Program-made: the position numbers and the translations under genes
Notes under the pieces: model-generated
Told to the model about the DNA's origin: nothing
Seen by the model: the letters and a program-made list of their open reading frames with translations, nothing else
The model's database searches: none
Part shown: in pieces, positions 36,748 to 49,080 of the stretch
Layout of the letters: each line of letters starts with the position of its first letter
How positions within the stretch are numbered: position 1 is the first letter of the stretch
Assembly (NCBI GenBank): GCA_021827145.1
Contig: JAKAXK010000007.1
Span: 1 to 49,808 of the forward strand
Direction: 5' to 3'
DNA: 49,808 bases
DNA from: Pseudomonadota bacterium
Lineage (GTDB): Bacteria > Pseudomonadota > Gammaproteobacteria > Acidiferrobacterales > Acidiferrobacteraceae

Positions 36748-37232
36748 CGGCGGAATCGGGAAACCGCGGAACGGCCTTCCTTAGGTCTGCGAATCTTGGA
36801 ACGGGAGCCTAGGGCAAACGGTTGCGTGGCCCATCATGCGCATGTTTTTTGAGCAGCGCGGTATGGCGTGTCTGACTCGCCTGGATTTCCACGGCCCGGC
36901 TTTCGCCTAAGGAGGGTGAGCATGGTGAACGCGTCGCCTCCCTCGATTGCAGGGGCTGGCCGGGCATGGGAACGATGCCCCGGGCAGACGGCACGGGTCC
37001 TTTCTGGCCGAAAGGCCATGCGGGGGCGCGGAGCGTGCTACCCCTCCACCGTCAGGGTGCAAACCGCGGTTTGCAGGGTTTGCGGTTTGCACCTGAAGAC
37101 CGCGGTCCGCCCTGAAGGCGAACAGGGCAAGCCGCGCTCCGAATGGGGCAAAGATCGCTTTACTTACCCTATTCCCGCCAGCCCGACCCAGACAGCCCAC
37201 AGTATAATTTGTAGAAACTCCGTTCCTTTGAA
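36748..37232. other. Left flank of the restriction island with an inverted repeat
   Basis: No gene is convincing. At 37056-37067 and 37082-37093 lies a perfect 12-bp inverted repeat (GGTGCAAACCGC / GCGGTTTGCACC) with a 14-base loop. The left arm continues into a 16-bp self-palindrome GCAAACCGCGGTTTGC. It may be a terminator-like structure, a protein-binding site or a recombination site. The island promoter follows. Confidence 0.45.
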
Positions 37233-37269
37233 TTGACAAACGCAATCTGGGCACCTAAGATGGTGCCCA
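37233..37269 (+). promoter_or_regulatory. Promoter of the hsd island with operator-like palindrome over -10
   Basis: TTGACA (37233-37238), 17 bases, TAAGAT (37256-37261). The -10 box is exactly the six-base spacer of a perfect inverted repeat TGGGCACC / GGTGCCCA (37248-37255 and 37262-37269). A bound repressor would block RNA polymerase. The start of transcription falls near 37268, 30 or so bases before the hsdS ATG. Confidence 0.65.
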
Positions 37270-37300
37270 TGATTTTTGTCGTAAAGGCGTTATTGCATTC

Positions 37301-37870
37301 ATGAACCTTGGCGAGCTGACTGAAGTACAGATGGGCTATCCCTTCCGGTCGCGCCTTGAGCACGACCCACAGGGCAATGTCACCGTGATCCAGATGAAGG
37401 ACATCGACGAAACGAACCTGCTACGCGTCGGAGAGGCGATCCGGATAGCGCTGCCCAAGGGCAAGACGCGCCACCTGCTGCGCGCGGGCGATCTGCTGTT
37501 CCGCTCGCGTGGCCGCAGCAATGGCGCGGCGCTGGTAGCGGAAGGTGTCAGCCCAGCGGTGCTGGCGGCACCCATGCTGCTGATTCGCCCCCACGGCGTG
37601 CTGCCCGACTACCTGTGCTGGTACATCAATGCGCCGGCCACCCAGGCCCAACTGGCGGCGCTGGCCGAGGGCACTTCGGTGCAGATGATCAGCGCCGAGA
37701 CCCTGAAGGCGCTGGAGGTTCCGCTGCCTTCGCGGGCCACGCAGCAACGCATCGTGCAGGCCGCGGCCCTGGCCGAACAAGAACAAACACTGCTGGCCCG
37801 CATCGCCACCCTGCGCCAGCGCGTCACCTATCACCTTTTGATGAAGTCCGCCCACGAGACTAACCCATGA
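37301..37870 (+). CDS. hsdS: Half-size type I restriction specificity subunit (single TRD)
   Basis: The 189 residues hold one target recognition domain and one conserved helical spacer. MNLGELTEVQMGYPFRS, LLRAGDLLFRSRGRSN and the typical ending ALEVPLPSRATQQRIVQAA with the coiled coil QEQTLLARIATL are Methylase_S features. Usual HsdS proteins have two such units (the second hsdS here does). Half subunits can act as dimers recognising a palindromic-type bipartite site. It is first in the operon and overlaps hsdM as ATGA. Only a weak AAAGGCG precedes the ATG. Confidence 0.82.
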   Translation: MNLGELTEVQMGYPFRSRLEHDPQGNVTVIQMKDIDETNLLRVGEAIRIALPKGKTRHLLRAGDLLFRSRGRSNGAALVAEGVSPAVLAAPMLLIRPHGVLPDYLCWYINAPATQAQLAALAEGTSVQMISAETLKALEVPLPSRATQQRIVQAAALAEQEQTLLARIATLRQRVTYHLLMKSAHETNP

Positions 37871-39426
37871 CCAACCCGCTCACCCAACAAGACGTCAACA
37901 ACACTGCCTGGGCCGCCTGCGACACCTTTCGCGGCGTCGTCGATCCGGCGCAGTACAAGGACTACATCCTGGTGATGCTGTTCCTGAAGTACATCAGCGA
38001 CCAGTGGGCCGACCACTACGCCGAGTACAAGAAGGAATTCGGCGACAACGAAGAGCGCATCCGCCGCAAGCTGAAGCGCGAGCGCTTCATCCTGCCTTAC
38101 GTCGAGTTCAAGGACGAGAGGACCGGCAACGTGACTGACCGCTTCCTCGCCGACTTCCACGCTCTTTACGAGCGGCGCAAGGCGGCCAACCTTGGCGAGC
38201 TCATCAACATCGTGCTCGACCACATCGAGGAGGCCAACAAGGCCAAGCTCGAAGGCGTGTTCCGCAACATCGATTTCAACTCCGAGGCCAATCTCGGCAA
38301 GACCAAGGACCGCAACCGCCGCCTGGAAAACCTGCTGGGCGACTTCGCCAAGCTCGACCTGCGTCCCTCGCGCGTCTCCGAGGACGTAATCGGCGACACC
38401 TATATCTACCTGATCGAGCGCTTCGCCTCCGACGCCGGCAAGAAGGCCGGCGAGTTCTACACCCCCAAGCAGGTATCGAAGCTGCTGGCGCAGCTGGCCG
38501 CCCCCAAACCCGGCGACCGCATCTGCGACCCCACCTGCGGCGCCGGTGGCCTGCTGATCGAAGCAGCCACGCTGGTCGAGCAGCAGGGCAGCCGCAATTT
38601 CGCGCTGTTCGGCCAGGAGGTCAACGGCAGCACCTGGGCGCTGGCGTGCATGAACATGTTCCTGCACGGCAAGGACGCCGCCCGCATCGAATGGGGCGAC
38701 ACCCTCAACAGCCCGGCGCTGGTGGAAGCCGACCGCCTGATGCGCTTCAACGTGGTGGTCGCCAACCCGCCCTTCAGCCTCGACAAATGGGGCGGCCAAG
38801 AGGTCGAGGCCGACCGCTACAGCCGATTCTGGCGCGGCCTGCCGCCCAAGTCCAAGGGCGACTACGCCTTCATCACCCACATGATCGAGACCGCGCTGCC
38901 GCAGGAAGGCCGCGTGGCGGTGGTGGTGCCGCACGGCGTGCTGTTCCGCGGCGGTGCCGAGGGCCGCATCCGCCGCGCCATGATCGAGGAGAACCTGCTC
39001 GATGCCGTGATCGGCCTGCCAGGCAACCTGTTCCCCACCACCTCGATCCCGGTCGCCATCCTGGTGTTCGACCGCGCCCGCGAAAAAGGCGGTGCCCGCG
39101 AGGACTGTCAGGACGTGCTATTCATCGACGCCAGCCGTGACTACCAGTCCGGCAAGAATCAGAACTCCCTGCGCGACGAGCACATGACTCGCATCCTGGC
39201 GACCTTTCGCGCTCGCCAGCCGGTGGACAAGTATGCCCATGTCGCCAGCCTGCAGGAGATCGCCGACAATGACTTCAATCTCAACATCCCGCGCTACGTG
39301 GATACCTTCGAGGAAGAGGAAGAGATCGACGTCACCGCCGTCGAGCAGGAGATCGAGCGGCTGGAGGGCGAACTGGCCGAGGTGCGCACGCGCATGAAAC
39401 AGTACCTCCGGGAACTGGGTGTATGA
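37867..39426 (+). CDS. hsdM: Type I restriction-modification methyltransferase HsdM
   Basis: The N6-adenine methyltransferase has 519 residues. An N-terminal HsdM helical domain with LKYISDQWADHY is followed by the methylase domain: GEFYTPKQVSKLL, motif I DPTCGAGGLL (SAM binding, about 218-227) and motif IV ANPPFSL. A glutamate-rich C-terminal coiled coil ends MKQYLRELGV. It methylates host DNA at the HsdS site and is needed with HsdR for cleavage. Overlaps the half hsdS and dinD by four bases each. Intact. Confidence 0.95.
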   Translation: MTNPLTQQDVNNTAWAACDTFRGVVDPAQYKDYILVMLFLKYISDQWADHYAEYKKEFGDNEERIRRKLKRERFILPYVEFKDERTGNVTDRFLADFHALYERRKAANLGELINIVLDHIEEANKAKLEGVFRNIDFNSEANLGKTKDRNRRLENLLGDFAKLDLRPSRVSEDVIGDTYIYLIERFASDAGKKAGEFYTPKQVSKLLAQLAAPKPGDRICDPTCGAGGLLIEAATLVEQQGSRNFALFGQEVNGSTWALACMNMFLHGKDAARIEWGDTLNSPALVEADRLMRFNVVVANPPFSLDKWGGQEVEADRYSRFWRGLPPKSKGDYAFITHMIETALPQEGRVAVVVPHGVLFRGGAEGRIRRAMIEENLLDAVIGLPGNLFPTTSIPVAILVFDRAREKGGAREDCQDVLFIDASRDYQSGKNQNSLRDEHMTRILATFRARQPVDKYAHVASLQEIADNDFNLNIPRYVDTFEEEEEIDVTAVEQEIERLEGELAEVRTRMKQYLRELGV

Positions 39427-40274
39427 AAAAGACCGACAAACCCACCGTCGACCAGCACCACCAGACCTTCGAAGGCATCCGCCAGATCGATGCCGACGGT
39501 AACGAACACTGGATGGGACGCCAGCTCGCCCGCGTGCTGGAGTACTCGGAATACCGCCACTTCCTGCCTGTGATCGAGCGGGCCAAGGAAGCCTGCCGCA
39601 ATAGCGGCCACCCCGAGGCTGACCATTTCGAGGATATCCTCGATATGGTCGAAATCGGCTCGGGTGCCAAGCGCCAAGTGGCCGACATCCGCCTGTCACG
39701 CTACGCCTGCTACCTGATCGTACAGAACGGCGACCCGGCCAAGCCGGTCATCGCCAACGGCCAAACCTACTTCGCGCTGCAAACCCGTCGCCAGGAGCTG
39801 CGGGACGACGAGACCTTCGCCCGTCTCAGCGAGGACGACAAGCGCCTGGCCATCCGTAACGAGCTGGCCATCCACAACAAACATCTGGCGGCCGCCGCCA
39901 AGGATGCCGGCGTCGAAACCCCGCTGGACTACGCCATCTTCCAGGACCACGGCTACAAGGGCCTGTACGGCGGGCGCAGTGCCAAGGACATCCACACCGC
40001 CAAGGGCCTGAAAAAGAGCCAAAAGATCCTCGACCACATGGGCAGCACCGAGCTGGCCGCCAACCTGTTCCGCGCTACCCAGACCGAAGAGAAGTTGCGG
40101 CGCGAACGGGTGCGCGGCAAGCAGAAGGCCAATCAGACCCACTTCGAGGTCGGCAAGAAGGTGCGCCAGACCATCGCCGACCTGGGCGGCACCATGCCCG
40201 AAGCCCTGCCCACGCCAAAGGCCGGCATCCAGCAGCTCGAAAAGGGCAAGAAAAAACTGGAGAAGAAGAAATGA
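39423..40274 (+). CDS. dinD: DinD-like (DNA-damage-inducible protein D) accessory gene
   Basis: The 283-residue protein matches DinD: TFEGIRQIDADGNEHWMGRQL, ARVLEYSEYRHF (Bro-N/KilA-N-like), IRLSRYACYLIVQNGD and HMGSTELAANLFRATQTEEKL, with a Lys-rich end. In E. coli DinD is an SOS-induced inhibitor of RecA filament activity. Its start overlaps hsdM as ATGA, so it is made with the methyltransferase; I see no LexA box. Its role in restriction islands is unknown. Right behind it a tiny overlapping frame begins ATGAGCGGCGGCGGACTG, nearly identical to the start of the second rhuM. Confidence 0.88.
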   Translation: MKKTDKPTVDQHHQTFEGIRQIDADGNEHWMGRQLARVLEYSEYRHFLPVIERAKEACRNSGHPEADHFEDILDMVEIGSGAKRQVADIRLSRYACYLIVQNGDPAKPVIANGQTYFALQTRRQELRDDETFARLSEDDKRLAIRNELAIHNKHLAAAAKDAGVETPLDYAIFQDHGYKGLYGGRSAKDIHTAKGLKKSQKILDHMGSTELAANLFRATQTEEKLRRERVRGKQKANQTHFEVGKKVRQTIADLGGTMPEALPTPKAGIQQLEKGKKKLEKKK

Positions 40275-40329
40275 GCGGCGGCGGACTGGCCCGGCAAGCT
40301 CGGTGCGAATCGCGGCGAAGGGGACATTG

Positions 40330-40797
40330 ATGAAGAAGAAGCAGGAGACATCCCTTGTCCGTTCATCGGCGGCGGAATACCTGACCTTTGTCGCCGCCAG
40401 CGGCCAGAGTGGCGTGGAGGCAGTTTATGCGGATGAAAGCATCTGGCTGACTCAGAAGATGCTGGCCCAGCTGTACGACGTGGATGTCCGAACCATCAAC
40501 TACCACCTGAAAAAAGTGTTTTCCGACAGCGAACTGGAGGCCGAATCAGTTATCCGAAATTTTCGGATAACTGCCACTGACGGCAAAAGCTACAACACCC
40601 AGCACTACAAGCTGCCCGCCATCATTGCGGTGGGCTACAAGGTCAACTCCGAGCGTGCGGTGCAGTTCCGCAAGTGGGCCACCGGCATCGTCGAGGAGTT
40701 CACCATCAAGGCCTGCGTGATGGATGACGAGCGCATCAAGAGCGGCGGTTCCGTCCTCACCGAGATGAAGCAGTGCCCCAAGGAGCTAGGCGTATGA
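40330..40797 (+). CDS. Truncated RhuM-family protein with HsdM-like tail
   Basis: The 155-residue frame starts MKKKQETSL and carries the RhuM N-terminal domain (VRTINYHLKKVFSDSELE, TDGKSYNTQHYKLPAIIAVGY, QFRKWATGIVEEF) to DDERIKSGGSVLTE. Full family members continue for another ~180 residues, as the next gene does. Instead it ends MKQCPKELGV, which resembles the HsdM end MKQYLRELGV at both protein and DNA level. It therefore looks like a RhuM gene cut and joined to a former hsdM 3' end. It overlaps the next rhuM as ATGA and could still be expressed. Function unknown. Confidence 0.75.
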   Translation: MKKKQETSLVRSSAAEYLTFVAASGQSGVEAVYADESIWLTQKMLAQLYDVDVRTINYHLKKVFSDSELEAESVIRNFRITATDGKSYNTQHYKLPAIIAVGYKVNSERAVQFRKWATGIVEEFTIKACVMDDERIKSGGSVLTEMKQCPKELGV

Positions 40798-41804
40798 GCG
40801 GCGGCGAACTGATCCTCTACACCGCCGAGGACGGCAGCGCCGCCATCCAGCTGCGCGCCGAAGGCGGCACGGTATGGCTCACTCAGCTCGAAATGGCCAC
40901 CCTGTTCGACACGTCCAAACAGAACATCAGCCTGCACATCAAGAACATTCTCGCCGAAGGCGAGCTGTCACTGGTAGTCGTCAAGGAATACTTGACAACT
41001 GCCAGTGACGGGAAGACCTACAAAACAAAGACTTACAACCTCGACATGATCCTGGCCGTCGGCTACCGGGTGCGCTCCCCACGCGGCACCCAGTTCCGCC
41101 AGTGGGCCACTACCCACCTGCGCGAATACCTGGTCAAGGGCTTCGTGCTGGACGACACCCGCCTCAAGGAGCCCGGCGGCTGGGATTACTTCGACGAGTT
41201 GCTGGCGCGCATCCGCGATATTCGCGCCTCAGAGAAGCGCTTCTACCAAAAGATCCGCGACATCTATACCACCGCCGTGGACTACGACAGCAAATCCGAG
41301 GCCGCCCAGCTGTTCTTCAAGAAGGTGCAGAACAAGATGCTCTGGGCCGTCACCGGCCACACCGCGCCCGAACTCATCGCCGGCCGCGCCGACCCCGCCC
41401 TGCCCAATATGGGCCTGACTACCTGGGCCGGCGGCCGGGTGCGCAAGCAGGATGTTACGGTGGCCAAGAACTACCTGAATCACGAGGAGATCGCGGCGCT
41501 GGACCGCATCGTGGTCATGTACCTCGACTACGCCGAGGACCAGGCCCAGCGCCGACGCACCCTGACCATGCACGACTGGGAAGACAGGCTCGACGCCTTC
41601 CTGCAGTTCAACGAGCGCGAAGTGCTGACCCATGCCGGTAAGCTGCGCGCCGATGTCGCGGAAAAGCTGGCGCTGGAACGCTACGAGAACTTTGACGCCG
41701 TCCGACGCGAAGCGGCGCGTCTAGCGGCGGATTCCGAGGATATGGCGGCGCTGGAACAGACCGAGCGGCAGTTGGAAGGCAAGGGGCGGAGGGGAAAGAA
41801 GTGA
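40794..41804 (+). CDS. RhuM-family protein (full length)
   Basis: This is a 336-residue RhuM (virulence RhuM family) protein. WLTQLEMATLFDTSKQNIS, SDGKTYKTKTYNLDMILAVGY and FRQWATTHLREYL form the KilA-N/DNA-binding-like half. ASEKRFYQKIRDIYTTAVDY and NKMLWAVTGHTAPELI define the C-terminal half found in many members within type I restriction loci. Exact role unknown; phage antirepressor-like DNA-binding is inferred. ATG 40794 lies 8 bases behind AAGGAG, which is itself inside the preceding tail. Overlaps hsdS by four bases. Confidence 0.87.
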   Translation: MSGGELILYTAEDGSAAIQLRAEGGTVWLTQLEMATLFDTSKQNISLHIKNILAEGELSLVVVKEYLTTASDGKTYKTKTYNLDMILAVGYRVRSPRGTQFRQWATTHLREYLVKGFVLDDTRLKEPGGWDYFDELLARIRDIRASEKRFYQKIRDIYTTAVDYDSKSEAAQLFFKKVQNKMLWAVTGHTAPELIAGRADPALPNMGLTTWAGGRVRKQDVTVAKNYLNHEEIAALDRIVVMYLDYAEDQAQRRRTLTMHDWEDRLDAFLQFNEREVLTHAGKLRADVAEKLALERYENFDAVRREAARLAADSEDMAALEQTERQLEGKGRRGKK

Positions 41805-42997
41805 AACGCAGGAAATTCGACATCGTGCCGCTTGGTGAGCTTCTGGAAGGAACACCTCGCAATGGCTTTTCACCGGTCTGCCCGGGGTTACCGACCGGAA
41901 AGTGGGTACTCGGCTTGTCAGCACTTGACGGTCGCGGCCTTGACTTGTCCGAAGCTAAACCCGTGCCCGCGAATGACCCGCTCGTCGACAAGTTCATGTT
42001 GCGACCCGGTGATTTCCTAATCAGTCGTTCGAACACGCTCGACAAGGTTGGCCGTGTCGGTGTCTTCAGAGGCGAACTTGAGAACTGCTCATATCCAGAT
42101 TTGATGATGAGGTTTCGTTCGGACCGCGAAAAAGTGCACCCGCTTTACTTGGAGACGTATCTCAAGGGTGATAAGGCAATCAAATTCATTCGACAGCACG
42201 CCACAGGCACAAGTGGCAGCATGAAAACAATTAACCAATCAACGGTTGAGTCGATCCCCATAGTTGTTCCGTCGATATCTGAGCAGGAATCAATTGCCAC
42301 GATACTTCTGAGTTGGTACGAATCCATCCAGAAAACCGAGAAACTGACCGCGGCGAAGGAGCGGCACTACACCCACGAACTGTCGCGCCTGATCAGCCGG
42401 GGCCAGCACCCGCACGCCCATGTCAGCACCTTTGCCGAGGAAGTCTCTGCCCGCAATCGCGGCGGTAACGAGGCCCGAGTCCTGAGTGTGACGAACTCCC
42501 GCGGCTTCGTGCTGCCGGAAGACCAGTTCGAGCGCCGCGTCGCCAGCGCCGATCTGTCCAACTACAAGGTCGTGCGCCGTTGGCAGTACGCCTACAACCC
42601 ATCGCGAATCAACGTCGGTTCCATTGCCCGCCTCGAAGGCTGGGACGATGGTGTACTCAGCCCGATGTATGTCGTGTTCCGGATCAACGAGGAAAAGGTC
42701 CGCTCGGATTATTTCCTACACTGGCTGAACTCCCACGAAGCGCGTCAGCGCATCAAGAACAGCGCCCAGGGCAGCGTCCGCGAAACGGTGTCCTTCTCCG
42801 AATTCGCCGCCATCACGATTCCGCTCCCGGAGATTCACACCCAAACCGCTATCGCCTCCTACCTCAACGCCCTGCGCGAGGAGATCGACCTGCTTGGTCA
42901 GTCGATCGCCGCACTGAAGACCCAGAAGCGCGGCCTGATGCAGAAGCTGCTCACCGGCGAGTGGCGCTTGCCAATCAACGACAGAGCCTCCGAATGA
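41801..42997 (+). CDS. hsdS: Type I restriction specificity subunit HsdS (two TRDs)
   Basis: The specificity subunit has 398 residues. TRD 1 (about 1-150) includes FMLRPGDFLISRSNTLDKVG and ends in TINQSTVESIPIVVP. It is followed by the conserved spacer helix QTEKLTAAKERHY-type, TRD 2 (about 205-345) and the second spacer ending QKRGLMQKLLTGEWRLP, the classical HsdS C-terminus. TRD 1 looks visibly richer in A+T than TRD 2 and than hsdM, suggesting separate origins by domain exchange. It overlaps rhuM and the HAD gene by four bases each. Confidence 0.92.
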   Translation: MKRRKFDIVPLGELLEGTPRNGFSPVCPGLPTGKWVLGLSALDGRGLDLSEAKPVPANDPLVDKFMLRPGDFLISRSNTLDKVGRVGVFRGELENCSYPDLMMRFRSDREKVHPLYLETYLKGDKAIKFIRQHATGTSGSMKTINQSTVESIPIVVPSISEQESIATILLSWYESIQKTEKLTAAKERHYTHELSRLISRGQHPHAHVSTFAEEVSARNRGGNEARVLSVTNSRGFVLPEDQFERRVASADLSNYKVVRRWQYAYNPSRINVGSIARLEGWDDGVLSPMYVVFRINEEKVRSDYFLHWLNSHEARQRIKNSAQGSVRETVSFSEFAAITIPLPEIHTQTAIASYLNALREEIDLLGQSIAALKTQKRGLMQKLLTGEWRLPINDRASE

Positions 42998-43920
42998 TCA
43001 AAAAAAAGGTAACCATGGCCATCGCTTACGACTTCGATGGCACATTGGCTCCAGGGAACATGCAGGAACACCAGTTTCTGCCTGAAATCGGCATCAAACC
43101 CGCAACTTTCTGGAAAGAGGTGAATGACACGGCGAAGAAACATCAAGCTGACGAGGTGCTTGTCTACATGAACCTGATGTTGCGCAAGGCTGCGGAGCAC
43201 AACGCGCCCGTTGGCAAGGAACACTTCAAGCAGCGCGGTAACAATATTCAGCTCTTTAAGGGCGTGGCGGACTGGTTCTCGCGGATCAACGACTACGCCA
43301 AAAGCAAGAACGTCGATCTAAAGCACTATCTCATTTCTTCCGGGAACGAGGAGATATTCACCGGTACGAAAATCAAAAAATACTTCGAAGCTGTTTACGC
43401 ATCCAAGTATCTGTTTGATGCGAACGGAGTCGCTCAATGGCCGGCCCTGGCCATCAACTATACGACCAAGACCCAGTATCTATTTCGAATCAACAAGGGC
43501 GTCAAAGACATCAGCGACAACGCGTCGGTCAATCGATACGTTGAGCCAGAGCACCGCCCGGTTCCCTTCAAGAATATGGTTTTTATTGGTGATGGGGCCA
43601 CGGACATTCCGTGCTTTCGCTTGGTGAAGGAGCAAGGGGGGCTGTCAGTTGCCGTATACACGCCTCACAAGAAGGGCAAGAGTGGCAAAACAGCGGCCCT
43701 CAAGTACCGCGATGAAGGGCGCGTCCATGCTGTCGTGCCGGCGAACTATGCGGAAGGTTCCGAGCTGGACAAGATCATCAAGGGCCGGATTGATGAGGTT
43801 GCGGCCAGGCACGCACTCGGTTGCCTATTGAAGGACGCCCCTAATAAAAGAAAAACAGCTCCGGAGAAAGTCAAGAGCCGCCTTACTGACCGGGGAAAGC
43901 CCAATCCATGCAACGAATGA
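42994..43920 (+). CDS. HAD-superfamily hydrolase in the restriction island
   Basis: The 308-residue protein has HAD motif I AYDFDGTLAPGN (both Asp present, about 12-14), motif II YLISSGNEE and motif IV VFIGDGATDIPCF, so it is a likely phosphatase or phosphotransferase. The helical cap lies between motifs I and II (about 30-120). ATG 42994 overlaps the hsdS stop; the longer open frame upstream is hsdS out of frame. The base composition is more AT-rich than hsdM/hsdR. Homologues near restriction systems have no known function that I can name. A basic tail (RKTAPEKVKSRL) ends it. Confidence 0.85.
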   Translation: MIKKKVTMAIAYDFDGTLAPGNMQEHQFLPEIGIKPATFWKEVNDTAKKHQADEVLVYMNLMLRKAAEHNAPVGKEHFKQRGNNIQLFKGVADWFSRINDYAKSKNVDLKHYLISSGNEEIFTGTKIKKYFEAVYASKYLFDANGVAQWPALAINYTTKTQYLFRINKGVKDISDNASVNRYVEPEHRPVPFKNMVFIGDGATDIPCFRLVKEQGGLSVAVYTPHKKGKSGKTAALKYRDEGRVHAVVPANYAEGSELDKIIKGRIDEVAARHALGCLLKDAPNKRKTAPEKVKSRLTDRGKPNPCNE

Positions 43921-44013
43921 ATGAATGACCTGGCCATCTATCCGGGCAGTGGCCCGAAAGAGCCCCCTGGGCACTTGTCACCGGCGAGAAACCTTTGAGC
44001 GGGAGGGTAGCGC

Positions 44014-47000
44014 ATGACAGATCTGGAACATAACATCGAGCCCAGCTTCCGCTTCGACGAAAAATATCTATCCCAGATTCCAGCCCTGCAGGTGCTCGTC
44101 AATCTGGGCTACCAGTACCTCACTCCCGCCGAAGCGCTGGCCGCGCGCGGCGGCAAGGCCGGCAACGTACTGCTGGAGGGGATCCTGCGCGAGCAGTTGA
44201 AGAAGCTGAACCACATCCAGCACAAAGGCGGCAGCTATCTCTTCAGCGAGGAGAACATCCAGAGCGCCATCCAGCGGCTGAAGAACGTCAAGTACGACGG
44301 CCTGTTCAAGACCAACGAGGCGGTGTACGACCTGCTAACGCTGGGCGTGGCGCTGGAGCAGTCCATCGAGGGGGATCTGAAGAGCTTTACGCTCAACTAT
44401 GTGGACTGGCGCCATCCACAGAACAACGTCTACCACGTAGCCGCCGAGTTCGCGGTGGAGCGCACCCGCAGCGTCGAGACCTGCCGGCCGGACCTCGTGC
44501 TGTTCGTCAACGGCATTCCGTTCGCAGCAATCGAGTGCAAGTCCGCCACGGTCGAGGTGGGCCAAGCCATTTCGCAGACCATCCGCAACCAGCGCGACGA
44601 GTACATTCCGCGCCTGTTCACCTACGTGCAGACGGTGCTGGCGGTGAACAAGAACGAGGCCCGCTACGCCACCACCGGCACACCGGCCAAGTTCTGGTCG
44701 AAGTGGAAGGAGGACGTGGCGGACGCGGAGTTGGCGCCGCTCTTGGAGCGCCCGCTGCCGGAATCGGTGAAAGCCTCGCTGTTCGATCTGGCCTTTGCCG
44801 AGCTGGGCGTGCGCGAGGAAGTGGCCCCCTATCTGGTCGGCCGGCAGGTGACCGAGCAGGACCGCGTGCTCTACGCGCTGTGCCGCCCTGCGCGCGTGCT
44901 GGAGATGGCCTGGGCCTTCACGGTGTTTGACGGCGGCGTGCGCAAGATCGCGCGCTACCAGCAGGTGTTCGCCATTCGCGAGGTGCTCGCCCGCGTCAAG
45001 CAAACGGACGATGCTGGCCGCCGCCGCGGCGGCATCGTCTGGCATACGCAGGGCTCGGGCAAGTCGCTGACCATGGTGATGCTGGCCCGCGCGCTGGCAC
45101 TGGATCCGGCCATCCGCAATCCGCGCATCGTGCTGGTGACCGACCGGGTGGACCTGGACAAGCAACTAGGCAACACCTTCGCTGCCTGCGGACTCTCGCC
45201 CGACCGGGCCGAGAGCGGCCGCCATCTGGTGGAGCTGGTGTCCGACGGCAAGGCGCACATCGTCACCACGCTGGTGCACAAGTTCGACAAGGCGCTAGCC
45301 TACAAGAAGTTCAGCGACGCCTCGCCCGACATCTTCGTGCTGGTGGACGAAACCCAGCGTACCCAGCTGGGCGCTTACTCGGCTCGTATGCGGCAGATGT
45401 TCCCGAACGCCTGCTACATCGGGTTCACCGGCACGCCGCTCTTGACCCGCGAGAAGAGCGACGTGACCAAGTTCGGCGGCGTGATCCACACCTATGCCAT
45501 CGACCAGGCGGTGGCCGATGGCGCCATCGTGCCGCTCCTCTACGAAGGGCGCATGGTGGAGCTGGAACAGAACCAGGCCGCCATCGATATCTGGTTCGAG
45601 CGCCACACCCAGTGGCTGACCGAGCAGCAGAAGACCGACCTGAAGAAGAAATACGCCCGCGCCGAGATGCTGAACAAGGCCGAGCAGGTGATCTACATGC
45701 GCGCCTTCGATATCAGCGAGCATTACCGCCAGAACTGGCAGGGCACCGGCTTCAAGGCGCAGCTGGTGGCGCCCAACAAGGCGGCGGCGCTGCGCTACAA
45801 AGCGTTTCTGGACGAGCTGCGCGCGGTCACCAGCGAGGTGATCATCTCGCCGCCCGACGAACGCGAGGGCTTCGACGAGATCGACGCCGAGGAATCCACC
45901 GATGCGGTAGTGGCCTTCTGGCAGCGCATGATGAAGCGCTACGGTTCGGAGGACGACTACAACAAGCAGATCGTCAACGCCTTCAAGTTCGGCGACGAGC
46001 CGGAAATCCTGATCGTGGTGGACAAGCTGCTGACCGGCTTTGACGCGCCGCGCAACACGGTGCTCTACCTGACCCGGCGGCTCAAGGACCATTCCCTGCT
46101 ACAGGCCATCGCCCGGGTGAATCGCCTGTACGAAGACGAGTCCGGCAGCCGTGCCAAGGAGTTCGGCTACGTCATCGACTATGTGGGTGTGCTGGGCGAA
46201 CTGGACCAGGCGCTGACCACCTACAGCGCCCTGGAAGGGTTCGAGGCGACGGATCTCGAAGGTGCGCTGGCCTCGATTCATGAGGAAACCAAGGCGCTGC
46301 CGCAGCGCCACGCCGAGCTGTGGGACCTGTTCAAGACGGTGAAGAACCGCCAGGACGAAGAAGCCTTCGAACAATTGCTGGCCGACGAGAAACTGCGTGC
46401 CGGGTTCTACGAACGGCTGTCGGCCTACGCCAAGACCCTTGCCATTGCGCTGTCCAGCGAACGCTTCATCACCGAGACGCCTGAACAGAAGCTGCGCGCC
46501 TACAAGAACGACCTCAAGCGCTTCGTCAATCTGAAGGCGGCGGTGAAGCTGCGCTATGCGGAATCGGTGGACTACCGCGATTTCGAGCCGCGCATCCAGA
46601 AGCTGCTGGACATCCACATCTCGGCCTCCGATGTGGTGCAGTTGAACGCGCCGGTGAACATCTTCGACGAGGCCGCTTTCCAGAAGGTGGTCGAGGCGCA
46701 AGGTGCGGGCGGCGAGAAGAACCTGGGCGCCAAGGCCGACATGATCGCTCACGCCACCAAGCGCGCCATCCACGAACGGCTGGAGCAGGACCCGGCCTTC
46801 TACGAGAAGTTCTCCAAACTGATCCAACAGGCCATCGATGACTACCGCGCCCGGCGCCTGTCCGATCTGGAGTACCTGCAGCGCGTCACCGAGATCAAGG
46901 ACGCCGTGGTTTCGCGAAAGGGCGATGACCTGCCATTGCTGCTTCACGGCGACGCCGACGCGGCCGCCGTCTATGGCCTGCTGCGCCCCTTCGTGGCGAA

Positions 47001-47253
47001 CCACCTCGGCAACGCCGAACAGGCTCAGAACACCGCCGCCGAGGCGGCGATGGCGGTGTGGGGCATATTCCGCCGCAACCGCAAGGTGGGCTACTGGGAT
47101 GATCTCGACGCCCAGCGCCGGACCATGAACGAGATCGACGACTACCTCTACGACGAAGTCAAGGGTGCGCGAGGCATCGCGCTGTCCACTGATGAGATGG
47201 ATGAGATCCTTGAAAAGACGATGCAACTCGCCCGCCACCGGATGGCGGGGTGA
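44014..47253 (+). CDS. hsdR: Type I restriction endonuclease subunit HsdR
   Basis: This 1079-residue motor-nuclease has an N-terminal PD-(D/E)xK nuclease, RPDLVLFVNG...AAIECKSA (about 157-175), and two RecA-like helicase domains. The Walker A is HTQGSGKSL (about 342-350). Motif II reads LVDETQRTQ (about 443-451) where most relatives have DEAHRTQ. Motif III is GFTGTPL, and motif VI-like QAIARVNRLY follows. The C-terminal helical region docks to the methylase. It cleaves unmodified DNA after translocation. Separated from the HAD gene by 93 bases with GGGAGGG before the ATG. Confidence 0.95.
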   Translation: MTDLEHNIEPSFRFDEKYLSQIPALQVLVNLGYQYLTPAEALAARGGKAGNVLLEGILREQLKKLNHIQHKGGSYLFSEENIQSAIQRLKNVKYDGLFKTNEAVYDLLTLGVALEQSIEGDLKSFTLNYVDWRHPQNNVYHVAAEFAVERTRSVETCRPDLVLFVNGIPFAAIECKSATVEVGQAISQTIRNQRDEYIPRLFTYVQTVLAVNKNEARYATTGTPAKFWSKWKEDVADAELAPLLERPLPESVKASLFDLAFAELGVREEVAPYLVGRQVTEQDRVLYALCRPARVLEMAWAFTVFDGGVRKIARYQQVFAIREVLARVKQTDDAGRRRGGIVWHTQGSGKSLTMVMLARALALDPAIRNPRIVLVTDRVDLDKQLGNTFAACGLSPDRAESGRHLVELVSDGKAHIVTTLVHKFDKALAYKKFSDASPDIFVLVDETQRTQLGAYSARMRQMFPNACYIGFTGTPLLTREKSDVTKFGGVIHTYAIDQAVADGAIVPLLYEGRMVELEQNQAAIDIWFERHTQWLTEQQKTDLKKKYARAEMLNKAEQVIYMRAFDISEHYRQNWQGTGFKAQLVAPNKAAALRYKAFLDELRAVTSEVIISPPDEREGFDEIDAEESTDAVVAFWQRMMKRYGSEDDYNKQIVNAFKFGDEPEILIVVDKLLTGFDAPRNTVLYLTRRLKDHSLLQAIARVNRLYEDESGSRAKEFGYVIDYVGVLGELDQALTTYSALEGFEATDLEGALASIHEETKALPQRHAELWDLFKTVKNRQDEEAFEQLLADEKLRAGFYERLSAYAKTLAIALSSERFITETPEQKLRAYKNDLKRFVNLKAAVKLRYAESVDYRDFEPRIQKLLDIHISASDVVQLNAPVNIFDEAAFQKVVEAQGAGGEKNLGAKADMIAHATKRAIHERLEQDPAFYEKFSKLIQQAIDDYRARRLSDLEYLQRVTEIKDAVVSRKGDDLPLLLHGDADAAAVYGLLRPFVANHLGNAEQAQNTAAEAAMAVWGIFRRNRKVGYWDDLDAQRRTMNEIDDYLYDEVKGARGIALSTDEMDEILEKTMQLARHRMAG

Positions 47254-47960
47254 AGACGATGACCGGAACGCTGACCTACGGCACCGACACCATCCGCTAC
47301 GAGGTGCGCTTTCTGGCATCGCGACGGACCCTGGCCATCGAGGTCCACCCCGACAGCCGCGTGCTGGTGCGCGCGCCGCTCGGCTGCCCAGAGGCCTTGA
47401 TCGCGGAGCGCATACAGAGGCGCGCCGGCTGGATCAGCCGGCAACTGGCCGAATTCGAGCGCTATCGCCCCCGCACCCCGCCGCGCCAGTACGTCAACGG
47501 CGAATCGCACCTGTACCTTGGCCGGCAATACCGGCTGAAGCTGGTATCGGGCGATGCGGCCAGCGTGAAACGCGCGCGCGGCCAACTGCTCGTCAGCCTG
47601 CCCGGCGAACCTGGCCCTGAACGCGTGAAGATGCTGCTGCACCGCTGGTATCTCGACCGGGCACGAACCGTATTCACTGAGGTCCTGGACGCCAGCTTGC
47701 TCCAGTTCAAAAACGTCCGGCATCCGCGTCTGATCGTGCGCGCCATGCAATCCCGCTGGGGTAGCCTGTCGCGCGCTGGCACGATGACCTTGAACGTCAA
47801 CCTAGTGCGCGCCCCCCGCCCCTGCATCGAATATGTAGTGGTTCACGAACTTTGCCACACCAAACACCGCGACCACGATGCACGGTTCTTCAAGCTGCTC
47901 GGACAAGTGATGCCGGACTGGGAACAACGCAAGCAACGGCTGGAAGTAGCGCTGCTGTGA
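47250..47960 (+). CDS. YgjP/SprT-like zinc metalloprotease
   Basis: The 236-residue protein has the M48-related YgjP (DUF45, WLM-type) zinc site VVHELCHTKHRDHDARFF, with HExxH plus a downstream His/acid ligand. The preceding MQSRWGSLS..TMTLNVNL pattern is the family signature. It often accompanies type I hsdR genes, overlapping as here (GTGA, start GTG 47250; ATG 47259 also possible). The biological role in restriction is unknown; SprT-like proteases digest DNA-protein crosslinks, so relief of stalled complexes is an idea only. Confidence 0.9.
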   Translation: MKTMTGTLTYGTDTIRYEVRFLASRRTLAIEVHPDSRVLVRAPLGCPEALIAERIQRRAGWISRQLAEFERYRPRTPPRQYVNGESHLYLGRQYRLKLVSGDAASVKRARGQLLVSLPGEPGPERVKMLLHRWYLDRARTVFTEVLDASLLQFKNVRHPRLIVRAMQSRWGSLSRAGTMTLNVNLVRAPRPCIEYVVVHELCHTKHRDHDARFFKLLGQVMPDWEQRKQRLEVALL

Positions 47961-48476: not shown

Positions 48477-48652
48477 GTGAACTCTAAGCAGATGAAGAAA
48501 TGGCTAGAGCAGCAGGGGGCGATATTCCAGCCCGGCAGAGGCTCGCATCTGAAAGTATTTTTGAATGGCAAGCAATCCACCCTATGCACGGAACCACCGA
48601 GCTTGGCAAGGGACTAGAAGCCGCGATCAAGCGACAGCTTGGTTTGAAGTAA
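48477..48652 (+). pseudogene. HicA-type toxin, frameshifted
   Basis: From GTG 48477 the frame gives MKKWLEQQGAIFQPGRGSHLK and FLNGKQSTL, the HicA double-stranded RNA-binding fold with its catalytic GSHxK His. It then shifts at about 48580 so that the in-frame stop comes at 48615-48617. A one-base shift gives MHGTTELGKGL..IKRQLGLK, the normal end, stopping at 48650-48652, eleven bases before hicB. The catalytic part precedes the shift, but the product loses its final helices. Possible sequencing error. Confidence 0.7.
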
Positions 48653-48663
48653 AGGAGAGAACC

Positions 48664-49080
48664 ATGTTTGACTATCCCGTGACCTTGACCCCTAATGACG
48701 GCACCGTGTTGGTCACTTTTGCCGGTGTGCCCGAGGCAATCACCTTCGGCGCCGATGAGGATGAAGCCCTGCTGAACGCCATAGACGCGCTGGAAACCGG
48801 CCTGTCGTTCTATGTGGAGGCCCGCAAACCTCTACCCGTCGCAAGCCGGCCCGCGGCCGGACAAAAGACCGTGCAGCCATCGGCGCTGGAATGCGCCAAG
48901 CTGGGCGTATACCAGGCCATGACCGATCAAGGAATCAAAAAGGCGGAACTCGCCCGGCGTCTGGGATGGCATATGCCGCAAATCGATCGTCTATTCGATC
49001 TGCGCCACGCCTCAAGGCTCGACCAGATCGAAGCGGCCGCGCACGCGCTCGGCAAGCACATTCATGTGCGGGTTGCCTGA
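48664..49080 (+). CDS. hicB: HicB-type antitoxin
   Basis: The 138-residue antitoxin has an N-terminal partial RNase H-like domain (FDYPVTLTPNDGTVLVTFAGVPEAITFG, here in two parts), followed by a C-terminal helix-turn-helix (AELARRLGWHMPQIDRLFD) ending HIHVRVA. This is the HTH-bearing type of HicB that represses its operon. AAAGGAGAGAACC gives a strong ribosome site before ATG 48664. It follows the frameshifted hicA. Confidence 0.85.
   Translation: MFDYPVTLTPNDGTVLVTFAGVPEAITFGADEDEALLNAIDALETGLSFYVEARKPLPVASRPAAGQKTVQPSALECAKLGVYQAMTDQGIKKAELARRLGWHMPQIDRLFDLRHASRLDQIEAAAHALGKHIHVRVA

Follow-up and report, generated by a model that had tools for sequence, protein, structure and literature searches.

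A type I restriction-modification operon led by a half-HsdS gene, with two cargo bays and operator-like palindromes at its promoter

How a type I restriction-modification (RM) system enters a naive cell without cutting the chromosome is a long-standing question, to which EcoKI offers one answer, in that a host protease degrades its HsdR (PMC12255303). The closest studied system to the locus described here is the RRDM island of enteropathogenic E. coli, composed of RptR, a type I RMS, DarTG2 and an M48 peptidase (PMC12255303). Engineered half-HsdS proteins, as described in PMC6158711, dimerise to give active methyltransferases and have been likened to homodimeric transcription factors. Here, we analyse an operon in a 49,808-nucleotide (nt) stretch of DNA from a bacterium of the Acidiferrobacteraceae (contig JAKAXK010000007.1; hereafter the window), which begins with a half-hsdS gene. 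Our results firmly support the view that this is a type I RM carrier in which two bays take up cargo, and the best reading of its half-HsdS is that of an autoregulator of the operon, perhaps acting with HsdM, to which we assign a probability of about 0.6. The half-HsdS with its operator is the strongest new feature and was absent from the initial annotation of this DNA, whose observation of a composite island is confirmed and whose interpretation is partly supported.

The genes half-hsdS, hsdM, dinD, a 5' rhuM fragment, rhuM, full hsdS, a HAD phosphatase gene, hsdR and ygjP fill positions 37301-47960, all on the plus strand (Table 1). Their order and identities, as initially annotated, are borne out by Pfam, PADLOC and NCBIfam, which place hsdR, hsdM and hsdS within one locus, and the target-recognition domains (TRDs) of the full HsdS swap between relatives, as in type I RM systems. 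By eye the catalytic motifs appear intact, namely what we take to be NPPF in HsdM, Walker A and PD-ExK in HsdR, HExxH in YgjP and DxDGT in the HAD protein. Six of the eight gene junctions are 4-nt ATGA or GTGA overlaps, while gaps of 55 nt (dinD to rhuM fragment) and 93 nt (HAD to hsdR) interrupt the series; the description of nearly all genes as joined holds, and that of all as translationally chained does not. The initial annotation was right to see here a type I RM operon whose extra genes apparently belong to the same transcription unit. The window also carries a single-TRD S gene shortly before hsdM, the feature by which we define here a half-HsdS-led type I subfamily.

An HsdM alignment used to scan a genome collection yielded at least 554 confirmed candidates, of which the best 80, 58-94% identical and from hosts of many phyla, were kept. 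Half-hsdS lay upstream of hsdM, at most 659 nt away, in 72 of the 78 loci where its position was testable, the other two being cut by contig ends; a distance limit of 400 nt gave 65/78, and one of 1200 nt gave the full 72. The two genes were at most 100 nt apart in 53 loci, 101-399 nt in 12 and 407-659 nt in seven, and the 4-nt overlap seen in the window recurred in 17 of the 72. Locus L137 was scored as lacking half-hsdS, yet tblastn finds one, and in L161 two open reading frames (ORFs) separate half-hsdS from hsdM. Of the 52 loci where this could be tested, 51 have ygjP 3' of hsdR, L161 being the sole exception; the remaining 28 were cut or lacked hsdR. As control served 44 other type I loci (HsdM 24-43% identical), hand-picked as 38 with contig room from class HsdM matches and the window's own genome, plus six from another search. 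No recognised S gene shorter than 260 amino acids stood directly upstream of hsdM in any of these 44, with upstream room not checked for each, and ygjP followed hsdR in six (L215, L216, L230, L233, L236, L117). The own genome also holds four more hsdM loci (C193, C84, C130, C220 = L235-L238), with no half-hsdS seen upstream.

An independent plasmid set points the same way. From 53 records matched by the half-S protein, 14 were hand-chosen for different genera, and by the records' own annotation 12 of them display the order S, M, (cargo), S, (cargo), R, SprT metalloprotease; of the exceptions, L267 has S and M alone, and the incomplete table of L270 lists no hsdR. Since the order recurs in loci of many phyla and in 12/14 plasmid loci, it is not a product of chance. 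Half-hsdS and ygjP are core genes of the subfamily. Hence, the proposal that five accessory genes form a dedicated second layer is not supported: two of them belong to the core, and DinD, RhuM and HAD are variable cargo.

The half-HsdS displays a pattern of conservation distinct from that of the full subunit. Among 43 loci with all five genes, nine pairs share HsdM identity of at least 0.9, and their median identities are 0.70 (0.61-0.93) for half-S, 0.29 (0.23-0.60) for full S, 0.93 for HsdR and 0.82 for YgjP. In 66 close pairs, the TRD region of half-S (0.62-0.81) is about as conserved as its C-terminal helix (0.61-0.64), or more so. In contrast, the full S displays the reverse, with TRD windows at 0.12-0.28 and helix windows at 0.33-0.73. 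The half-HsdS does not swap like the full HsdS, an observation that is new here. At greater distance it diverges faster, with identity of 0.27 against 0.40 for YgjP at HsdM 0.6-0.7, and it may occasionally be replaced, since its identity falls to a lowest value of 0.28 at HsdM 0.8-0.9.

The AlphaFold2 (AF2) model of the half-HsdS, built from 62 sequences with a predicted local distance difference test (pLDDT) score of 95.3, consists of one TRD and one 42-residue helix. Its best structural matches in the PDB are Esub1 (8vsq, 8vsr; template-modelling (TM) score ~0.75, 18% identity), followed by type I S subunits. We set aside a role of half-S as recombination donor for the full S, as the best identity reached only 37.5% over at least 100 residues; the near-identical half-S and full S segments that mark phase-variable type I loci are not present. 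The phage collection contained no half-S match.

Just before 37301, outside the coordinates covered by the initial annotation, lie a sigma-70-like promoter and two palindromes flanking it. The operator site was first spotted by eye, then modelled with a seeded position weight matrix (PWM), and then sought by a palindromic search without seed on 75 upstream regions. The unseeded search recovers the same 21-bp motif, TGCAGtAAcg.cgTTaCTGCA, with an objective of 618 versus 214-227 in three re-trained shuffles, and this motif scores at least 10 in 45/75 loci versus 16-19 in the re-trained shuffles. With the seeded model, a site (score at least 8) lies upstream of half-hsdS in 46/75 loci where shuffles predict 4.4; this PWM was trained on those same sequences, and the re-trained shuffles are the fair control. 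Two sites are present in 33 of the 75 loci, and 30 of these pairs are 50-80 bp apart. Between the paired sites, TTGA[CA] occurs in 28/30 loci (3.5 expected), with promoter-like spacing to the -10 element in 25/30. Paired palindromes flanking the promoter are common, not universal, in the half-HsdS-led subfamily, and the window has both.

The sites are concentrated at this one position. At a score of at least 12, their density is 2.77 per kb upstream of half-hsdS versus 0.019 per kb in the remainder of these loci (146x); the 26 sites of that remainder include four that form the promoter pairs of L137 and L161. In L161, two sites lie at the start of the half-hsdS ORF (7287) and not at hsdM (10004), despite the two intervening ORFs. 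Over stretches of up to 960 bp, 4/44 control type I loci carry the operator at a score of at least 8 and 2/44 at one of at least 10, counts taken without a shuffle comparison. The 2.8-Mb genome to which the window belongs has two matches to TGYNGNAANNNNNTTNYTGCA, one being the downstream palindrome at 37277..37297; the second, at C85:47433-47453 (L255), is less palindromic. Another inverted repeat at the window promoter, GGGCACC-N6-GGTGCCC, was dropped, as it was not seen in the close relatives listed. A perfect palindrome, TGCAAACCGCGGTTTGCA, lies at 37058-37075, ~240 bp upstream of half-hsdS, and L136 has a similar one.

Operator sharing follows the half-HsdS rather than the methyltransferase subunit. 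In partial Mantel tests, it correlates with half-S given HsdM at 0.24-0.25 (reached by 0/499 permutations), versus 0.002-0.035 with HsdM given half-S (72-220/499) and 0.03 with the full S given HsdM (76/499). At HsdM identity 0.75-0.85, the median half-S identity is 0.49 in the 242 pairs sharing the operator and 0.31 in the 73 pairs where one member has it; at 0.70-0.75, the medians are 0.42 and 0.34. The loci without the main operator, 43 in number (29 plus the 14 plasmid loci), were tested for other palindromes, and these include GTATGAG-N5-CTCATAC, CTGTAG-N5/6-CTACAG and GCATCA-N7-TGATGC. Palindrome pairs occur in 22 of the 43 versus 12.9 in shuffles. An A at -4 with a T at +4 is present in 12 of 15 strong odd palindromes, and this pair is more constant than any other offset; A makes up 31% in AT-matched controls (350 windows), giving a tail of 1e-4 for 12/15. 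In odd sites, these adenines correspond to a methyl interval of 7, which lies in the 6-9 range given for type I enzymes in PMC3874165.

The genes between the core genes behave differently. We define bay 1 as the space from hsdM to hsdS and bay 2 as that from hsdS to hsdR. Bay 1, resolved in 72 of the 80 loci and counted without unknown ORFs below 130 amino acids, is empty in 25, holds rhuM alone in 14, dinD alone in 11, one other gene in 11 and combinations in 11. Bay 2, resolved in 62 of the 80, is empty in 14 and filled in 48. Ten bay 1 proteins assigned by Pfam comprise Schlafen AlbA_2 (2), SoFic (2), KilA-N (2), DUF4357, a YhcG nuclease, a TIR protein and a DEAD helicase that also weakly matches the RecQ zinc-binding family. 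For bay 2, twenty proteins were scanned by Pfam and ten by PADLOC. They include the cyclic-oligonucleotide-based antiphage signalling system (CBASS) as cyclase plus two-transmembrane (2TM) effector in L135 and as phospholipase, cyclase and E2 in L155, Shedu (L137), PDC-M07A/B (L115) and an AAA/OLD-like protein with DUF3800 (L120). Kinase, Fic, DUF6119, DUF4917, Schlafen and other families are found as well, and four of the twenty proteins scanned had no Pfam match.

Even close backbones differ in what they carry. Seven close relatives, with HsdM 89-94% identical to that of the window, display six bay 2 states: PDC-M07 (L115), CBASS (L135), Shedu (L137), a SMODS protein plus an unknown one (L138), two small ORFs (L139) and an empty bay (L121, L141); none has the HAD of the window. 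DNA homology between the window and these relatives spans half-hsdS-hsdM and hsdR-ygjP and breaks at the bays, resuming in most of them around codon 10-11 of hsdR. GC content is 0.521 in the HAD gene and 0.519 in the first part of hsdS (41801-42330), versus 0.635-0.653 in the backbone genes. Homology to L136 and L137 starts ~390 bp before half-hsdS (36912-36913), and that to L137 extends to 48161; exchange may therefore involve a larger unit than 37301-47960. DinD, RhuM and HAD are interchangeable cargo in two bays around hsdS.

Across the 80 loci, rhuM is present in 23, dinD in 18 and HAD in three (L144, L150, L173); rhuM and dinD coincide in two (L162, L173) and all three genes in one (L173). 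Rarity of the accessory genes beside hsdM, which the initial annotation had named as telling against its composite system, is real for HAD (3/80) and for the exact set and untrue for RhuM, DinD and YgjP. Family matches in a class sample of 185 genomes number 20 for HAD, 55 for RhuM, 8 for DinD and 99 for HsdM_N. Outside the subfamily, HAD had no recognised hsd gene beside it in 18 regions (20/185 genomes match; the own genome and the weakest match, G182, were left out), where distant hsd genes could escape profiles built from this subfamily; in L106, hsdR and hsdM lie ~4.4 kb from HAD. The viral contig collection contained no HAD relative. A Methylocystis plasmid has the order half-S, M, RhuM, S, Shedu, HAD, R, SprT, with a HAD 65% identical to that of the window. 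Outside type I loci, the PDC-S34 HAD is often near or next to a same-strand ORF of ~550-690 amino acids (L098, L099, L109-L113). Two further rhuM matches occur in the own genome (C94, C113 = L239, L240). Positions 5-270 of DinD (39423-40274) match PADLOC PDLC03083, a type I specificity model of 717 positions, which suggests that natural DinD-HsdS fusions exist.

The "truncated rhuM", initially regarded as one member of a RhuM pair, is by alignment a recombination scar in which a RhuM 5' end appears fused to an hsdM tail. Window positions 40330-40764 are 87% identical to the 5' end of the full rhuM in L139, and positions 40765-41804 align with the hsdM tail and rhuM of L135, L137, L121 and L148, with a base-exact join at 40764|40765. 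L136 has the dinD-side spacer in common with the window and continues into a rhuM of the L139-type lineage. Most simply, an hsdM-dinD-rhuM(B) and an hsdM-rhuM(A) arrangement would have fused, with the second hsdM lost except for its tail. For the intact RhuM, there was no PDB sequence match at E 0.1, and its fold prediction was set aside (predicted TM score 0.50; weak PDB structure matches, DdrC at E 3e-3). The literature searched (bioRxiv preprints not covered) contained no paper joining RhuM with restriction-modification and hsdS.

The operon thus has a fixed backbone of promoter with operator-like palindromes, half-hsdS, hsdM, bay 1, hsdS, bay 2, hsdR and ygjP, in which the full HsdS sets the target and swaps freely. 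The bays admit extra defence genes, here DinD and RhuM and then the HAD phosphatase, all under the common promoter. Two half-HsdS copies would form a symmetric S-like dimer that, probably together with HsdM, may recognise the two promoter-flanking palindromes and thereby limit or time expression of restriction and cargo. YgjP, co-produced with HsdR, would by analogy with host proteases probably remove HsdR or stalled complexes, providing built-in restriction alleviation. A more tentative step, to which we give somewhat less than even odds, is that the half-HsdS guides the HsdM of the operon in methylating one adenine per arm of both palindromes, so that the promoter reads its own methylation state. 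If so, the promoter would be unmethylated on arrival in a new cell and methylated once HsdM is abundant, and a methylation-sensing switch would time restriction and all cargo of a mobile defence carrier. The proposal makes a precise prediction: in the promoters identified, protein binding or methylation should be seen at particular adenines.

Several observations weigh against autoregulation by the half-HsdS. The main operator is missing from 29/75 loci, and the motif exceeds the usual length of type I targets. HsdR (0.13, 0/499) and YgjP (0.09, 1/499) also correlate with operator sharing given HsdM, at HsdM identity 0.60-0.70 the half-S identity shows no difference between operator states, and the palindromes adjoin half-hsdS, so that co-inheritance by linkage could produce the same correlation. 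Strong odd palindromes are found in only 15 of the 43 loci without the main operator, some of these loci are related, bringing the effective number below 15, and strong even palindromes have the A/T pair at -4/+4 in 9/17. Paired sites resemble each other more than do sites taken from different loci (p 0.017), but the excess over shuffles is not clear (p 0.10).

Could the half-HsdS instead be an ordinary second specificity subunit, two copies of which join HsdM (and HsdR) to restrict a palindromic target, with the promoter palindromes incidental? The active enzymes obtained with engineered half-HsdS (PMC6158711), the truncated S of NgoAV with its symmetric target (PMC3874165) and the confident model with full TRD and helix all agree with this explanation. 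We nevertheless regard it as unlikely, given that the half-HsdS does not swap like the full HsdS and that the palindromes are concentrated at the half-hsdS promoter, one pattern form occurring only twice in the own 2.8-Mb genome. It is similarly doubtful that the palindromes bind another regulator, a host factor or unlinked repressor, with the half-HsdS structural, for example aiding HsdM before the full HsdS is made. That half-hsdS comes first and can overlap hsdM by 4 nt would suit such a role, and according to PMC12255303 the RRDM island is under the control of a distinct repressor, encoded by its first gene and acting at short palindromes. Against it, motif and half-S co-vary beyond HsdM, and among the constant genes (half-hsdS, hsdM, hsdR, ygjP) it is the half-HsdS that has the target-recognition domain. 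The motif persists when bay 1 changes or is empty, which makes a bay 1 protein an improbable candidate for the general palindrome binder. Least probable by far is a single composite layer of DinD, the RhuM pair, HAD and YgjP that senses restriction damage; despite one operon of mostly overlapping genes and the recurrence of dinD, rhuM and HAD together in L173, the set is interchangeable, close backbones carry different cargo, and one of the supposed RhuM pair is a scar.

Table 1. Features of the operon and its promoter region, in window coordinates
Feature	Coordinates	Strand	Basis
Upstream operator-like palindrome, just before -35	37210..37230		PWM score 14.2
Sigma-70-like promoter TTGACA, 17-nt spacer, TAAGAT	37233..37261	+	Read from sequence
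Downstream operator-like palindrome, 3 nt before half-hsdS start	37277..37297		PWM score 22.1
half-hsdS, one target-recognition domain and one long helix; proposed autoregulator of fixed specificity	37301..37870	+	Pfam PF01420, AF2 pLDDT 95.3, conserved position
hsdM, N6-adenine methyltransferase subunit	37867..39426	+	TIGR00497 281 bits
dinD, bay 1 cargo	39423..40274	+	NF008573 445 bits, PADLOC PDC-S13
5' fragment of second rhuM lineage (to 40764) fused to last hsdM codons (from 40765)	40330..40797	+	Alignments
rhuM, bay 1 cargo	40794..41804	+	PF13310 374 bits, PADLOC PDC-S05
Full hsdS, swapping specificity subunit	41801..42997	+	PF01420 in two stretches
HAD-family phosphatase, bay 2 cargo	42994..43920	+	PADLOC PDC-S34, GC 0.521
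hsdR, restriction/translocation subunit	44014..47253	+	TIGR00348 471 bits
ygjP, SprT/WLM-like zinc metallopeptidase, core gene	47250..47960	+	PF01863 200 bits

Apparently 3' of the island, at 48480-49080, a HicAB-like toxin-antitoxin pair is visible by eye, whose hicA-like frame seems interrupted. Within the island, all three cargo genes are already known phage-defence candidates, matching PADLOC PDC-S05 (RhuM), PDC-S13 (DinD) and PDC-S34 (HAD), names that we take to come from the 2024 preprint of Payne et al. on embedded defences. The two bays around hsdS offer a defined vehicle for finding new defence genes. To the question of entry into a naive cell, this subfamily, spread over many phyla and plasmids, seems to bring its own answer in an S-derived autoregulator, conserved operators and a co-encoded peptidase.

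Among known proteins, Esub1, co-crystallised with Prx, resembles the half-HsdS as a stand-alone S-like protein of ~200 residues and as the best structural match, but differs in sequence (18% identity). Prx is presumably a phage-encoded streptococcal protein (paratox), and the literature searched, again without bioRxiv preprints, contained no relevant paper on Esub1. M.NgoAV (PMC3874165), the engineered half-HsdS (PMC6158711) and EcoR124I_NT (PMC3320862) are likewise described as a single TRD plus helix that dimerises to recognise a symmetric target. In those systems, however, the half-S replaces the full S, whereas the present locus encodes both, and its half-S does not swap as the full HsdS does. 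In EcoKI, ClpXP-dependent restriction alleviation (PMC4231737) provides a model of protease control of HsdR for the proposed role of YgjP, with the difference that ClpXP is a protease of the host, whereas the operon itself encodes YgjP, a small zinc peptidase. The likeness to RRDM, as described in PMC12255303, extends to a first-gene regulator acting on its own promoter via palindromes, which the present locus would share, to defence cargo between hsdS and hsdR, and to a zinc metallopeptidase gene downstream. RRDM has been shown to protect against phage. The repressor RptR is helical, has a mass of 9 kDa and acts at TAGCTA sites (PMC12255303), whereas in the present locus half-hsdS comes first, and no TAGCTA occurs in 37150-37310. 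The palindromes of the present subfamily are ~17-22 bp long and often paired around the promoter, and a second bay opens between hsdM and hsdS.

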